A stretch of DNA of 52,320 bases from assembly GCA_019310525.1 (NCBI GenBank), contig JAFDEE010000033.1, positions 1 to 52,320 of the forward strand, read 5' to 3'. The DNA comes from Deltaproteobacteria bacterium. GTDB taxonomy: Bacteria; Desulfobacterota; DSM-4660; Desulfatiglandales; HGW-15. The notes beneath the pieces were generated by a model. It saw nothing but the letters and a program-made list of their open reading frames with translations, was not told the origin of the DNA and made no database searches. The position numbers and the translations under genes are program-made. Positions 1 through 49,168 of this stretch are shown here, piece by piece (the stretch's first letter is position 1; every line of letters starts with the position of its first letter).

Positions 1-82
1 CTGCCTGCCCCTTGGAATGGCAGATAGGTCCGGCACAGGCAGGCGCAGAGATTGGGGAAAAGGGCCATTTATGGATGGGCAC
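1..82 (+). repeat. Right-end fragment of the dispersed leader element (copy G)
   Basis: Positions 46-76 match the right part of the element seen complete at 41305-41446: a cgcagagattggg block, then an A/G run, then the terminal arm. The terminal arm is the alternative type, TTTATGGATGGGCAC at 68-82, which is the inverse (14 of 15) of GTGTCCATCCATAAA at 19044-19058. Positions 1-45 hold a CTGCCTG / CAGGCAG inverted repeat and may be the variable centre. The left half lies outside the window. Confidence 0.6.
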
Positions 83-17625: not shown

Positions 17626-18813
17626 CTAGTCCGAGGAGGTATCAAGGCTCTTTCGGAGAGAATCGATCGCCTCGGTGATGAGCTTCTCCGCTACTTCAGC
17701 CATGGTCTCCCGGGCAGTGTTTTCACTCAATTCCCGTACGGCCTGTTTCATTGTGGGCTCGAGTCCTTCCCGGATCCGGTCCACGGCTTCCCCGAGAAAT
17801 CTCTCCAGCCTCTCCTCCATAACTTCGCGCACGGCCCTATCCACCGCCTCCTTGACCACGGGAGCCACCATGGCCTCGAGCTCTTCCCTGCCAAGGACCG
17901 ATGCGGGCTCCGGAATGGTTTCAGGGGGGCCGGCTTCCTGTTCGACCGCAGCAACCCCTTCCTCCCCGGGAACACCCTCGCCGGTCATAGGGGTTGCTTC
18001 CAGATCCCCTTCGGGTTCCGGTAAAGGAGCCCCTATCTCATCGGCCGCCAGGTCCGCTTCCCCGGGAATTTCCTCGCTGAGCATCTTCTCGAGATCCTCC
18101 TCGGTGATCTCCTCTGGGTCCCCGGTGGTCTCCATCTCCTTGGCCGGCGTCTCTTCCAGGCCCCCGGCCGACACTTCGTCCGTTTCCATCCCTCCGGGCT
18201 CCAGCTCCGCAGCAGAAGGGCTTACCTCTTCGAGCAAACCTTCGAGATCTGATTCACTGATTTCATCCTCGCCCTCGCCAAGATCCGCCTCATCACCGGT
18301 AATCAGCTCATCAGCACCCTCCTCGGGTTCTTCCTCCAGAATCCCCGCTAAGTCCTCAGCGCTGATCTCCTCTTCATCCAAGGAGACGCCCTCTTTCGCT
18401 TCTTCTTCCTCGATTTCAAGGTCCAGGTCGTCCACGGCCTTTTCCAATAGGGCGTCTTCAAGTTCCCCTTCGGAGATCTCCCCTACACCCTCTTCATCAG
18501 GCTGGAGTCCCGCCCCGAAATCAGGGCTCTCTTCATGCAAAGTTTCGGCAAGATCCCCCTCCTCATGCTCTGACTCTTGTTCACCGGGAGGAATTTGATC
18601 ACTGTCGGAATCCACCCCCTTTTGAACTTCCAGGTCTTCCTCTGCGGTCGTTTGAAATTCCGGGCCCTTCTCCACGAGGTCAACGAGTTCGATGACCTCC
18701 TCCCCGCCGGCTTCCTTGTCCTCCTCCTCCAGCGACAGTTCATCAAGGTCAAAATCGAGCAACTCCTCGTCCTTCAGCACCTCATCGTCCAAGGGCCTAT
18801 CTTCCTTGTCCAT
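17626..18813 (-). CDS. Extremely acidic protein with four short repeats and a C-terminal helical domain
   Basis: 395 residues; residues 1-305 are dominated by Glu and Asp. Four degenerate 13-residue repeats occur: EISEGELEDALLE (112), EISAEDLAGILEE (149), EISESDLEGLLEE (184) and EITEEDLEKMLSE (235), consensus E-I-S/T-x-x-D-L-x-x-L-L-E-E. The C-terminal part (about 306-390) is a run of amphipathic helices with alternating Glu and Arg, beginning GREELEAMVAPVVKEAVDRA. There is no signal peptide or membrane segment. The repeats look like short helical interaction motifs on a disordered acidic tether, with the C-terminus as an oligomerisation or docking module. I do not recognise a named family and suggest no enzymatic function. 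It stands between valS and tRNA-Arg. Confidence 0.75.
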   Translation of the reverse strand: MDKEDRPLDDEVLKDEELLDFDLDELSLEEEDKEAGGEEVIELVDLVEKGPEFQTTAEEDLEVQKGVDSDSDQIPPGEQESEHEEGDLAETLHEESPDFGAGLQPDEEGVGEISEGELEDALLEKAVDDLDLEIEEEEAKEGVSLDEEEISAEDLAGILEEEPEEGADELITGDEADLGEGEDEISESDLEGLLEEVSPSAAELEPGGMETDEVSAGGLEETPAKEMETTGDPEEITEEDLEKMLSEEIPGEADLAADEIGAPLPEPEGDLEATPMTGEGVPGEEGVAAVEQEAGPPETIPEPASVLGREELEAMVAPVVKEAVDRAVREVMEERLERFLGEAVDRIREGLEPTMKQAVRELSENTARETMAEVAEKLITEAIDSLRKSLDTSSD

Positions 18814-18834: not shown

Positions 18835-18849
18835 GGTTTTTCAAAGGTC
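18835..18849 (+). repeat. Isolated terminal arm of the dispersed element
   Basis: GGTTTTTCAAAGGTCTC at 18834-18850 matches the right terminal arm of the element (consensus CGTTTTTCAAAGGTCTC) except for its first base. No element body is adjacent. It lies 21 bases upstream of the start of the acidic-protein gene, in opposite orientation to it. Intergenic 18851-19043 holds nothing else that I recognise. Confidence 0.45.
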
Positions 18850-19043
18850 TCCCTGTATCCACCGGTTACAGTGAATGTCCGTCATCAAGTCTCCGTCTTC
18901 TCCTTGGACCGTCCTGTTAGTAAAATTCCGGTCATTTCAAGGTACACGGACGGTACTCAATGGTAACATTACGGAAAAATTATAGAAATGATCATCTCTA
19001 ACTGTCAAGATTTTTTCTTCTTTTTATTAATTCAAATTAACTG

Positions 19044-19165
19044 GTGTCCATCCATAAACAGGCAATTTTATTCAAGGTCAAGGAAGGCGAAAAATTTATG
19101 TGTTTCAAGGATTAAAATTTGTCCGCACGCAGCGACGACCCTCCGCCTTCCGGGAGCATATCTCG
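19044..19165 (+). repeat. Dispersed leader element, copy C (left part, alternative end)
   Basis: Starts with the alternative terminal arm GTGTCCATCCATAAA (19044-19058). It then follows the common body: caattttattcaaggtcaaggaaggcg, a shortened AT-rich inner hairpin, ggattaaaatttgtccgcacg and ccgccttccggg. GGAAGGCG and CGCCTTCC form a stem. No right terminal arm is visible. It lies about 90 bases upstream of tRNA-Arg in the same orientation. Confidence 0.7.
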
Positions 19166-19335: not shown

Positions 19336-19525
19336 GAAAGAATTGAAAAACGTTCGATTTTGTTCAAGGTCAAGGAAGGCGAAAATTTTAACCGCAAGAA
19401 TACACTGAGTATTCCGAGGATTCTAATTTGTCCGCGTTCAACGACGACACCCCACCTTCCGGGGGGACCCTTGGGTTGAGCCTGACAATAATGTTGGACA
19501 AAAGAGAACGCTTTTCAAAGGTCTT
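19336..19525 (+). repeat. Dispersed leader element, copy D
   Basis: Near-complete copy starting a few bases after the tRNA-Arg CCA. Left arm TTGAAAAACG (19343-19352), right arm CGCTTTTCAAAGGTCTT (19509-19525). Second stem TTTTGTTCAA (19358-19367) with TTGGACAAAA (19494-19503), where a G to A change relative to other copies turns a U-G into a U-A pair. The inner hairpin contains GAATAC-ACTGA-GTATTC. The centre is longer than in copy B. Confidence 0.75.
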
Positions 19526-25516: not shown

Positions 25517-25654
25517 GGTTATCCTTTCTTTTGCAGTACCGGGAAACCGGTTTCTAACTAGTTTCCATCAATAAGGCCGATTTTGGCAATCTTTCTCCTT
25601 CCCCTCCGGGGCGTACGTAGGTCCTACGGGCCAGAGATTTGACCTTGCATAAAT

Positions 25655-25677
25655 TTTCTCATTTATGGATGGATACC
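25655..25677. repeat. Terminal-arm fragment (TTTATGGATGG type) at the histidine kinase 3' end
   Basis: TTTATGGATGGATAC at 25662-25676 is 13 to 14 of 15 identical to the right arm of copy G (68-82) in inverted-complement logic. It abuts the stop codon of the sensor kinase (25680). The 25517-25654 stretch, preceding it, has no recognisable gene or element body. Confidence 0.4.
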
Positions 25678-32646: not shown

Positions 32647-33126
32647 GAGACCTTTGAACCCAGATTATGCATGACAAATCTTGAAAGAAGTTGTTTCTTT
32701 AATGATTGCGGACCGTTGGACATCTTTCCAAACCAAATTGCATTCACCAGAAAGGTGCAGTCCGGGAACATCAAATTCATTCAAAATTTGTCACCCTTCG
32801 GGATTGCCGATTTTGCCGAATCTGCTGCGTTGCAAGGCGCTCGAAGTACAAAAGTACGTCTTCGCACCTTGGGCCTTGCATCTTCGACAAACTTGGCAAT
32901 TGCACAATCCGGGTTGCAAAACGTTTAATTTTGTTCAAAGTCACGGGAAAGGAAAATTTCGACCATCCCGCTTAGGATGCCAAGCGGCAGAGGCACCATG
33001 CATTGGAGTATTTCGAGGATTGAGATTTGTCCGCACGAAGTGACGACTCCCCGCCTTCCAGGCTGATCCCCGGTTTCAGACCAACGGTGAGGAGATCGGG
33101 CAAAGTTAAGCGTTTTGCAAAGGTCT
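32647..33126 (+). repeat. Dispersed leader element, copy E, split by an insertion
   Basis: Left arm GAGACCTTTG (32647-32656) is interrupted and resumes CAAAACG (32917-32923); right arm CGTTTTGCAAAGGTCT (33111-33126). Joined, left AGACCTTTGCAAAACG and right are perfectly complementary over 16 bases. Other copies have A where this copy has C in the left arm, and T where it has G on the right, so both sides changed together. Body: ttttgttcaaagtcac, inner hairpin, ttgtccgcacg, ccgccttcc and atcgggcaaag. It lies 80 bases before trpB, same direction. Confidence 0.75.
32657..32915. repeat. 259-bp inverted-repeat insertion inside element copy E
   Basis: Ends AACCCAGATTATGCA (32657-32671) and TGCACAATCCGGGTT (32901-32915) are inverted with 13 of 15 identity. 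Removal of the segment restores the left arm of copy E. The interior has imperfect palindromes, including CGAAGTAC-AAAA-GTACGTCTTCG near 32848-32870, and the phrase gattgccgattttgccgaatctgctgcg-like blocks. No frame in it looks like a protein. It resembles a non-autonomous, MITE-like unit. Confidence 0.65.
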
Positions 33127-41304: not shown

Positions 41305-41446
41305 GAGACCTTTGAAAAACGTTCAATTTTGTTCAAGATCAAGGAAGACGAAAATTTTAACCACAGGAATACCTTGAGTATTTCGAGGATTAAAATTTGA
41401 GTCTGACGCAGAGATTGGGCAAAAGGGGGCATTTTTCAAAGATCTC
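41305..41446 (+). repeat. Dispersed leader element, copy B (complete, short form)
   Basis: 142 bp. Left arm GAGACCTTTGAAAAACG (41305-41321) and right arm CATTTTTCAAAGATCTC (41430-41446), two mismatches. Second stem TTTTGTTCAA (41327-41336) / TTGGGCAAAA (41415-41424). Inner hairpin AAAATTTTAACC...GGATTAAAATTT with GAATAC and GTATTTC near its tip. Just upstream, AGGTCTC-ACAATAG-GAGACCT (41291-41311) looks like an abutting arm of another copy. The argC ATG lies 27 bases after the element. Confidence 0.8.
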
Positions 41447-45573: not shown

Positions 45574-45657
45574 GAGACCTTTGAAAAGCGTCTGGCTTTG
45601 CCCGATCTTCCGCCTCTGTTACCGCTATGGCATGACAAGCTGTGTCAGACTCAAACC
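45574..45657 (-). repeat. Dispersed leader element, copy F (right half)
   Basis: On the minus strand this reads gtttgagtctgac, a variable centre, aggcggaagatcgggcaaag and the terminal arm CGCTTTTCAAAGGTCTC (45590-45574). It corresponds to the right half of copies A and B. The left half is missing. The DUF4416 stop codon (45651-45653) lies in the element sequence tttgagtctgac. It points toward yicC, whose start is 68 bases on. Confidence 0.7.
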
Positions 45658-47338: not shown

Positions 47339-47490
47339 GTTCCAACCTTCGCCGGCGCTTTCCCGCCGTTTTTTCCTGTAGAAACGTAACCCGTGACATT
47401 ATCATCGTAACCCGGGAATGTCTATTCTTTTTACCTGGGATCCTTCTCATAGTTCTCCTGAGCTGAGGGGGGGGAAACAGGGACAGGGTG

Positions 47491-47519
47491 TTGACTTTTT
47501 TCCGTCACACCCCTATATA
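47491..47519 (+). promoter_or_regulatory. Probable trkA promoter, immediately before element copy A
   Basis: TTGACT at 47491-47496, 17-base spacer, TATATA at 47514-47519 (TATAAT at 47516-47521 with a 19-base spacer). Transcription would start near 47526-47528, two to four bases before the element begins at 47530. Confidence 0.7.
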
Positions 47520-47529
47520 ATGACCCCAT

Positions 47530-47726
47530 GAGACCTTTGAAAAACGTTCAATTTTGTTCAAGGTCAAGGAAGGCGAAAATTTTAACCGCAGGAATACATT
47601 GAGGTATTTTGAGGATTAAAATTTGAGCCTGACGTAGCCTGTCCGCCGCTGTCTGGCGGGTTTGTCGCGCCGTAGCCGCGGCGAAGGCGGAAGATTGGGC
47701 AAAAGGGGACGTTTTTCAAAGGTCTC
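47530..47726 (+). repeat. Dispersed leader element, copy A (complete, long form)
   Basis: 197 bp. Left arm GAGACCTTTGAAAAACG (47530-47546) and right arm CGTTTTTCAAAGGTCTC (47710-47726) are perfect 17-base inverted repeats. Second stem TTTTGTTCAA (47552-47561) / TTGGGCAAAA (47695-47704), ten pairs with two G-U. Inner AT-rich hairpin GAAAATTTTAACC...GGATTAAAATTT. An additional GC-rich segment (about 47637-47692) carries small hairpins such as TCCGCC...GGCGGG. The trkA start is 83 bases downstream. Confidence 0.85.
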
Positions 47727-47809
47727 CCCATTTGAGCCTCCGCTATCTCGATAGGACCCCGACCTGAAGGCTCACCCCGGTAACCGATCCTTAGACTGGA
47801 GAAAAACCG

Positions 47810-49168
47810 GTGAAGATCATTATTGTCGGGGCCGGCGAAGTCGGCTTCCACATCGCCCAGAAGCTCACCGAGGAAAACCAGGATGTCTTCCTCATCGACA
47901 AGGATCCGGAGAAGATCAGGCGCATCAACGAGAATCTCGATGTCCAGGCCATCCTGGGTTCCGGCACCAGCCCCAAGACCCTGAAGACCGCCGGCATTCA
48001 GGATGCGGAACTCCTTGTCGCCGCAACGGACAGCGATGAAGTCAACCTCATGGCCTGCCTCCTGGCCCGCCACCTCAATCCCTATATCTTGAAAGTGGCC
48101 CGTGTACGGAGCCCCGAATTCCTCGCCGAAAAGGACCTTTTCGGTAAGGACCTCCTGGGTGTAGACCAGATCATCAACCCGGAATCCGTCATGGTGGAAA
48201 CGATCCGGAACCTTATGATAGCCCCGGGGGCCTCCGATATCGTCGATTTCGTGGATGGACGGGTCAAACTCGTTGGAATCACCGTGGACCAGGAATTTCC
48301 CTATGTGAACCGGAAACTCTCCTCCCTTGCCGACAGGGAGGGCAAGGTGCTGGTAGGAGCCATCATCCGGGACGACCAGGTTTTTATCCCCCACGGTGAC
48401 GACATCATTCGACCCCATGATGTCATCTACCTGGTGGTCCGAACGGAGGATCTGAAAGAGGGGTGTCCCTTTCTCCATGCGGGAAACGAAGGAGTCCGGC
48501 GGGTCCTTATCGTTGGAGGAGGGCAGACCGGCGCCGCCCTGGCCAGGGCCCTGGACGGGACCGGGACACATGTCAAGATCATCGACAAGGATACCCGGCG
48601 ATGTACGGAGCTTTCAGAGGAACTGGAAAAGGCGATCGTCATCAACGGGGACGGAACGGACAAGGACCTCCTCATGGAAGAAAACGTCAATGACGCTGAC
48701 TTCCTGGTCGCCGTTACGGGAGACGAAGAGAGCAACGTCCTGATCTCCCTCTTGGCCAAGGAGTTGGGGGCCAGGAGGAGCATTACCCGGATCAGCAAAT
48801 TGAGTTATATCCCTTTGGTCTCGGCCATCGGCATCGATACGGTGGTCAGTTCCAGGCTCTCGGCCATTCGTGCCATCCTCCAGTACATACGACGGGGGAA
48901 AATCATCTCAGTAGCCCCTCTCAAGGGTGAGCACGCCGAGGCGATCGAAGCGGAAGCCCTCCAAACGTCCGATATCGTCAATATCCCTTTATCAAGGGTA
49001 AGGTTCCCTAAAGGGGCCCTCATCGGCGCCGTGGTCCGGGGGGATGAAGTCATCATACCCCGGGGAGACACCGTGATAAGGCCCAAAGACAGGCTCATCA
49101 TCTTCACCCTTAGAACAGTTGTTCCCAAGCTGGAGAAACTTCTCACTGTCCGACTGGAATACTTCTGA
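47810..49168 (+). CDS. trkA: Trk potassium uptake system NAD-binding protein TrkA
   Basis: Cytoplasmic regulatory subunit of Trk K+ uptake, 452 residues, GTG start with GGAG eight bases upstream. Two tandem RCK halves: each with a Rossmann motif, IIIVGAGEVGFHIAQKL (residue 2) and VLIVGGGQTGAALARAL (about 232), NAD-binding acidic ends (FLIDKDPE and KIIDKDTR), and a TrkA-C domain ending with FVPHGDD-type VFIPHGDDIIRP and VIIPRGDTVIRPKDRL. It gates the TrkH channel in response to NAD(H)/ATP. The trkH gene follows with one base between. Its leader is predicted to contain element copy A. Confidence 0.95.
   Translation: MKIIIVGAGEVGFHIAQKLTEENQDVFLIDKDPEKIRRINENLDVQAILGSGTSPKTLKTAGIQDAELLVAATDSDEVNLMACLLARHLNPYILKVARVRSPEFLAEKDLFGKDLLGVDQIINPESVMVETIRNLMIAPGASDIVDFVDGRVKLVGITVDQEFPYVNRKLSSLADREGKVLVGAIIRDDQVFIPHGDDIIRPHDVIYLVVRTEDLKEGCPFLHAGNEGVRRVLIVGGGQTGAALARALDGTGTHVKIIDKDTRRCTELSEELEKAIVINGDGTDKDLLMEENVNDADFLVAVTGDEESNVLISLLAKELGARRSITRISKLSYIPLVSAIGIDTVVSSRLSAIRAILQYIRRGKIISVAPLKGEHAEAIEAEALQTSDIVNIPLSRVRFPKGALIGAVVRGDEVIIPRGDTVIRPKDRLIIFTLRTVVPKLEKLLTVRLEYF

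Follow-up and report, generated by a model that had tools for sequence, protein, structure and literature searches.

The repeats described here probably form a superfamily of non-autonomous DNA transposons that combine separately evolving ends with a conserved RNA core. The core is about 100 nt long and, in the base form, which carries no optional module, the whole element mostly measures 141-143 bp. The window, that is, the whole stretch of 52,320 nucleotides that was analysed, is one of the 158 contigs that make up a 3.78 Mb assembly.

Copies in the window and in the genome

Seven copies of a structured element had been listed in the sequence-only reading of the window, and all are present at or near the places given, together with the inverted ends, the second stem and the inner hairpin attributed to them. 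Complete copies with class-A ends (the end classes are defined below) are found on the + strand at 41305..41446 and 47530..47726. The former, upstream of argC, is the 142-bp base form, with the ends GAGACCTTTGAAAAACG and its inverse and the 100-nt core at positions 41326-41425. The latter corresponds to this base form plus an extra hairpin module (M3a) by the right end; its ends are GAGACCTTTGAAAAACG / CGTTTTTCAAAGGTCTC, it scores 72 bits with the covariance model R1, and it is directly abutted on the left (47525..47529) and on the right (47727..47731) by the target-site duplication CCCAT (both unstranded). A class-A copy with a decayed left end and module M2 lies just after tRNA-Arg (19336..19525, + strand), and the left part of a class-B copy (GTGTCCATCCATAAACAGGC), the right part of which is lost, lies upstream of tRNA-Arg (19044..19165, + strand). 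The right part only of a class-A copy is located upstream of yicC (45574..45657, - strand), and the right part of a class-B copy, with module M3b and cut by the contig start, at 1..82 (+ strand; class-B end at 64-82). The copy previously placed at 32647-33126 is real, but it is a class-A copy with modules M1 and M2 at about 32914..33126 (+ strand), the left end of which (GAGACCTTTG) is split, its first 10 bases being found at 32647-32656. The interrupting element, of about 259 bp (32657-32915), has inverted ends of its own, AACCCAGATTATGCA / AACCCGGATTGTGCA (read by eye).

Two remnants can be added to the earlier list, a class-B left end (25639..25677, - strand) and a lone class-A right end (18836..18851, + strand); the latter is upstream of the gene at 17626-18813 and is perhaps the trace of a lost copy. 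Class B is thus represented in the window by 1-82, 19044-19165 and 25639-25677, and class A by the other copies. The copies listed earlier do not have a single set of ends in common, since those at 1-82 and 19044-19165 belong to class B. Among the genes named as neighbours, the assignments trkA, argC, yicC and tRNA-Arg hold, and trpB is a PLP-dependent, trpB-like gene.

The repeats are far commoner than first described, with about 250 core matches in the 3.78 Mb genome. The class-A end has 320 matches genome-wide (up to 2 mismatches; 1 for the reversed control), the class-B end GCCATTTATGGATGGGCAC has 223 (up to 3 mismatches; control 0), and an 18-base word of the core has 248, with mismatches allowed (control 4). 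Contigs of this genome (C43, C76, C109, C140 and others) often end within a copy, as would happen where repeats interrupt the assembly; the repeats may help to explain the fragmented assemblies of these mostly uncultured bacteria.

End classes, target duplications and partner transposons

Class A has the end GAGACCTTTG and a 5-bp target duplication, whereas class B has the end GTGTCCATCC and a 6-bp duplication. Among base-form elements of this and other genomes, an exact 5-bp duplication flanks 51 of 77 elements of class A, and class B shows a 6-bp duplication in 17 of 35 and a 7-bp duplication in 2. For two further classes, duplications were found in 11 of 17 base-form elements of class D (6 bp) and in 4 of 8 of class C (4-5 bp). 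The target duplications of classes B and D tend to TAnnTA. These exact duplications are direct evidence of transposition. The repeats also have terminal inverted repeats of about 17 bp, a duplication of fixed length (A, 5 bp; B, 6 bp, in some cases 7; D, 6 bp), a base form of only about 142 bp that contains no transposase gene, and ends in common with autonomous elements of relatives; long copies with a transposase inside were not found. The repeats are therefore, with high confidence, non-autonomous mobile elements (MITEs), although not ordinary ones. A mobile element had been one of two options raised earlier, and the target-site duplications and the autonomous partners bear it out.

In relatives, a 1491-bp element with the ends GAGACCTTTGAATAATT / GAGACCTTTGCATAACC and the duplication TGAAG encodes an IS5-family transposase (NF033581, above cut-off), and further IS5-type elements have the ends GAGACCTTTG or GAGAGCTTTG. 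A 1693-bp element, also in a relative, has the ends GTTTCCATCCGGAAA and the duplication TAAATA, encodes an ISNCY-family transposase (NF033593, above cut-off) and has as its neighbour a miniature copy whose ends are of the same kind. Another genome contains a second ISNCY-type element, 1664 bp long, with the duplication TAATTA and the ends GTGTCCATCCATTAATGG, which are near the class-B ends of the window genome. From these ends and duplications, the IS5- and ISNCY-type transposases of relatives presumably move the copies. The core was absent from the transposons tested, and its sole match in those loci is the adjacent miniature copy.

An intact partner transposon was not found in the genome of the window itself, in which a transposase search gave three PF01609 matches, none of which has A or B ends of its own. 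The locus L182 was considered as a partner and rejected: it is an insertion sequence of the IS4 family (L182:1-1625; 467-aa transposase; ends near CAATGTCATTAACTTAA) that has landed at the end of a class-B copy. The insertion point coincides exactly with the class-B end and is marked by a near-duplication of 10 bp, GGATGGRCAC; the IS4-family element may target class-B ends. A 2.6-kb pair of ends in L225 was likewise set aside, since two separate ends with ordinary genes between them had been paired by chance.

The core and its fold

The core occurs under at least four well-sampled end classes. In named public genomes it is found with ends A, B, C (GAGCCAGTTTCAAAACG) and D (GTGCCTGAACGAAAACT), and distant families have further ends, e.g., GAGGCTGTCCGAGAATG, GGCTGTCTTGAAAAATG and GAGCCTCTTGCAAAATG. 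The class-A and class-B cores of the window genome are 90.9% identical to each other, and therefore closer than each is to its own class elsewhere (86.2% between own and foreign class-A cores, 85.0% for class B). In a rough tree of the inner core, which rests on 81 columns, the end class changes 26 times, against at least 47 with shuffled labels, as expected if ends are inherited for a time and then replaced. With partners from two transposase families, and with the core under both A and B here, both families share ends with one core, within a single genome. Evolution thus appears to be two-part, the core staying recognisable while the ends are exchanged. Optional hairpin modules, common to classes A and B, are found at fixed sites in many combinations; among 137 copies of this genome, M1 was counted 47 times, M3a 31, M2 21 and M3b 18. 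A sister form (L352, L354 and L393:2952-3128) keeps the outer core and has a different, GC-rich apical domain, e.g., GGAGGCGACCTGCAGGTCGCC, so that the apical hairpin itself may be exchangeable.

In the order, the covariance model finds the core in 51 of 85 genomes; in the sample from the phylum, 41 of 198 genomes and 37 of 145 genera have it. No match was obtained in family f4 of the order, from which 18 genomes (G019, G024 and G026 among them) were searched. In one of these, G026, an IS5-type partner with class-A ends is present and the core is absent. Named records with the core, among the matches listed, are from Desulfobacterales, other Deltaproteobacteria and loosely labelled proteobacterial assemblies, and the strict core pattern had no match in viral contigs. 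A described family of such repeats in this group was not found in the open-access literature that was searched.

The sequence-only reading had proposed a folded RNA and, as a check on it, a search for an excess of compensatory changes. In an alignment of 19 diverse cores with 100 nearly gap-free columns, 95.2% of the cells of a 32-pair hairpin can pair; 14 of the 32 pairs are changed on both sides, with 46 doubly changed cells against a mean of 14.6 in shuffled alignments. None of 500 shuffles reached the covariation score, so that the excess was indeed found, and structures slid along the alignment collapse. On the + strand, G-U pairs outnumber A-C mismatches in the core by 168 to 21 in 52 representatives of less than 90% identity to one another, a count in which much of the asymmetry comes from few columns and the cells are related by descent. 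The excess is seen in 48 representatives and its reverse in none; it persists when a nearly fixed G-U pair is left out and has the same direction in classes A, B, C and D separately. For the 12 outermost positions of their ends, the same elements give a ratio of 42:35. The ends are read as DNA by transposases and thus serve as an internal control, which does not support a mutational strand bias as the source of the excess. The + strand also folds better than the - strand (-53.3 and -39.9 kcal/mol, respectively); for the copy at 41305, the fold has z=-8.9 and the covariance model R1 gives 118.7 bits on the + strand and 32.8 on the - strand. The core thus has both the compensatory changes and the strand-specific wobble pairs of a structured RNA, in agreement with the earlier proposal, and, as judged from these patterns, selection very likely acts on the RNA fold of one strand.

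It is quite unlikely that the repeats are instead ordinary MITEs, that is, several unrelated internal-deletion derivatives of insertion sequences with an inside that has no function. Inverted ends, target duplications, intergenic placement and ends common to IS5- and ISNCY-type elements would all be accounted for. Deletion derivatives, however, would keep the internal sequence of their own partner, whereas the partner transposons lack the inside of the present repeats, which is conserved across the phylum under different ends and shows covariation and a strand-asymmetric wobble.

The purine motifs AAGGA, CAGGA and GAGGA are invariant or nearly so and lie in or beside loops. They would be explained if the core acted in trans as an RNA or served as a platform to which a host protein binds, e.g., the GGA-binding regulator CsrA; two of the motifs lie partly in stems, which argues against this reading, and we regard it as unlikely. 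No conserved reading frame in the core was apparent by eye, and a reading of the internal loop as a K-turn does not fit. At the gathering threshold the window has no Rfam match besides tRNAs, and a relaxed scan of 47450-47820 gave nothing near threshold.

Orientation and a possible role for the RNA

All seven copies had been described as pointing toward the next gene, which suggested a family of leader RNAs, or a mobile element retained only in leaders. Three of them (19044, 19336 and 47530) lie between divergent genes, where either orientation faces a gene of the same direction, and are therefore uninformative. Orientation was scored with a simple gene caller of our own for 137 of the about 250 copies of this genome and for 134 copies elsewhere. 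Between co-directional genes, 46 copies are sense and 24 antisense in this genome (p=0.0115), and 35 and 16, respectively, in other genomes (p=0.011); when pooled, 81 are sense and 40 antisense (p=2.4e-4), so that the rule of seven in seven fails genome-wide. A further 20 copies sit between genes that converge; in this genome, the share of copies in divergent and in convergent gaps is about what the length of these gaps would lead one to expect. With about one-third of the co-directional copies antisense, some copies between convergent genes, and gaps used in keeping with the amount of intergenic DNA, neither a leader family nor retention only in leaders is upheld. It is highly improbable that the repeats are riboswitch-like or attenuator leaders that regulate downstream genes and have spread by duplication: the strong conserved fold and a sense bias near start codons (113:59) would suit such a family, whereas the target duplications and class-specific ends indicate transposition, the downstream genes of the window copies are unrelated to one another, and no match was found in Rfam.

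The bias is carried by class A, with 55 sense and 18 antisense copies (p=1.7e-5), against 16 and 14 for class B (p=0.036 for the difference). A bias that reaches significance in class A alone cannot be due to the shared core only; it may stem from the ends or from the insertion process, given that class B, with the same core, is without bias. An effect of the replication strand is not supported either, as the wider neighbourhood of class-A copies in divergent and convergent gaps is balanced (16:15). These data also bear on the idea that selection acts on a fold of the + strand as single-stranded DNA, formed for example in the course of replication or transposition, and not on an RNA. G-T pairs are tolerated in DNA hairpins, and the strand asymmetry fits either molecule. 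The partners are, however, IS5- and ISNCY-type transposases, which are DDE enzymes acting on double-stranded ends, and the sense bias tracks the adjacent gene and not the wider neighbourhood, and does so in class A only; selection on a DNA fold thus appears to have a low probability.

In the explanation that we favour, a superfamily with exchangeable ends and an RNA core, the inverted repeats of about 17 bp would be recognised by IS5-family enzymes in class A and by ISNCY-family enzymes in class B. A copy would be moved by whichever transposase knows its ends and would insert between genes, where 5 or 6 bp of the target are duplicated, and the core, often lengthened by optional hairpin modules, would persist while the ends change. 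The core may be transcribed within neighbouring transcripts and act there in cis: a compact fold that can be processed by RNase would leave the downstream message neither blocked nor destabilised, the insertion would be tolerable, and elements with an intact fold would spread best. Such a cis effect is our leading guess, a tentative one, for which the RNase III substrates of Correia elements and the orientation-dependent ERIC sequences are precedents; the lack of an orientation bias in class B is its main weakness. There is a small chance that the core RNA helps the element to propagate, e.g., by recruiting a host or transposase factor common to several transposase families; if so, the repeats would be an RNA-assisted DNA transposon parasite, with the RNA as its permanent identity and the ends as disposable adaptors.

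Comparison with known repeat families

The usual definition of a MITE rests on its ends, with the inside regarded as filler. In the present repeats the inside appears to be the lasting part, one structured RNA having outlived several types of ends, and in a single genome the ends of two transposase families carry one core. The RNA family, phylum-wide and with as many as hundreds of copies in one genome, appears not to have been described before, and the need of a parasite for a conserved RNA becomes a directly testable question. There is a close likeness to the Correia repeat enclosed elements, or NEMIS, of Neisseria, which also have inverted ends, a conserved core, an optional internal segment and many intergenic copies. 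Correia-type ends have a TA target duplication, whereas the duplications found here are of 5 or 6 bp and the ends are different, so that the present repeats are not members of that family. Correia elements are about 107-155 bp long and give rise to folded transcripts that RNase III binds or cleaves (PMC2649163, PMC2229807). They are confined to one genus, unlike the present core, which is found phylum-wide and under the ends of two transposase families. The ERIC (or IRU) sequences of enterobacteria, of about 127 bp, are found in transcripts, and their orientation matters for the effect on the mRNA (PMC2229807); their sequence differs, however, and an exchange of ends is not described for ERIC in that source. 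RUP, of pneumococcus, is a MITE with ends matching those of the autonomous IS630-Spn1 (PMC2229807), but it has a single partner and a TA target, and no conserved RNA core is described for it in the same source.

Animal SINEs are retrotransposons copied via RNA and differ in this from the present elements, which belong to the DNA transposons and have inverted ends. In SINE superfamilies the helper-specific tail is exchanged. A central domain is conserved in CORE-SINEs, V-SINEs and other animal SINE superfamilies, while other parts vary by family (PMC8010984 and references therein). With a core and exchangeable ends, the repeats described here appear to work alike, as a bacterial counterpart of the animal CORE-SINEs.
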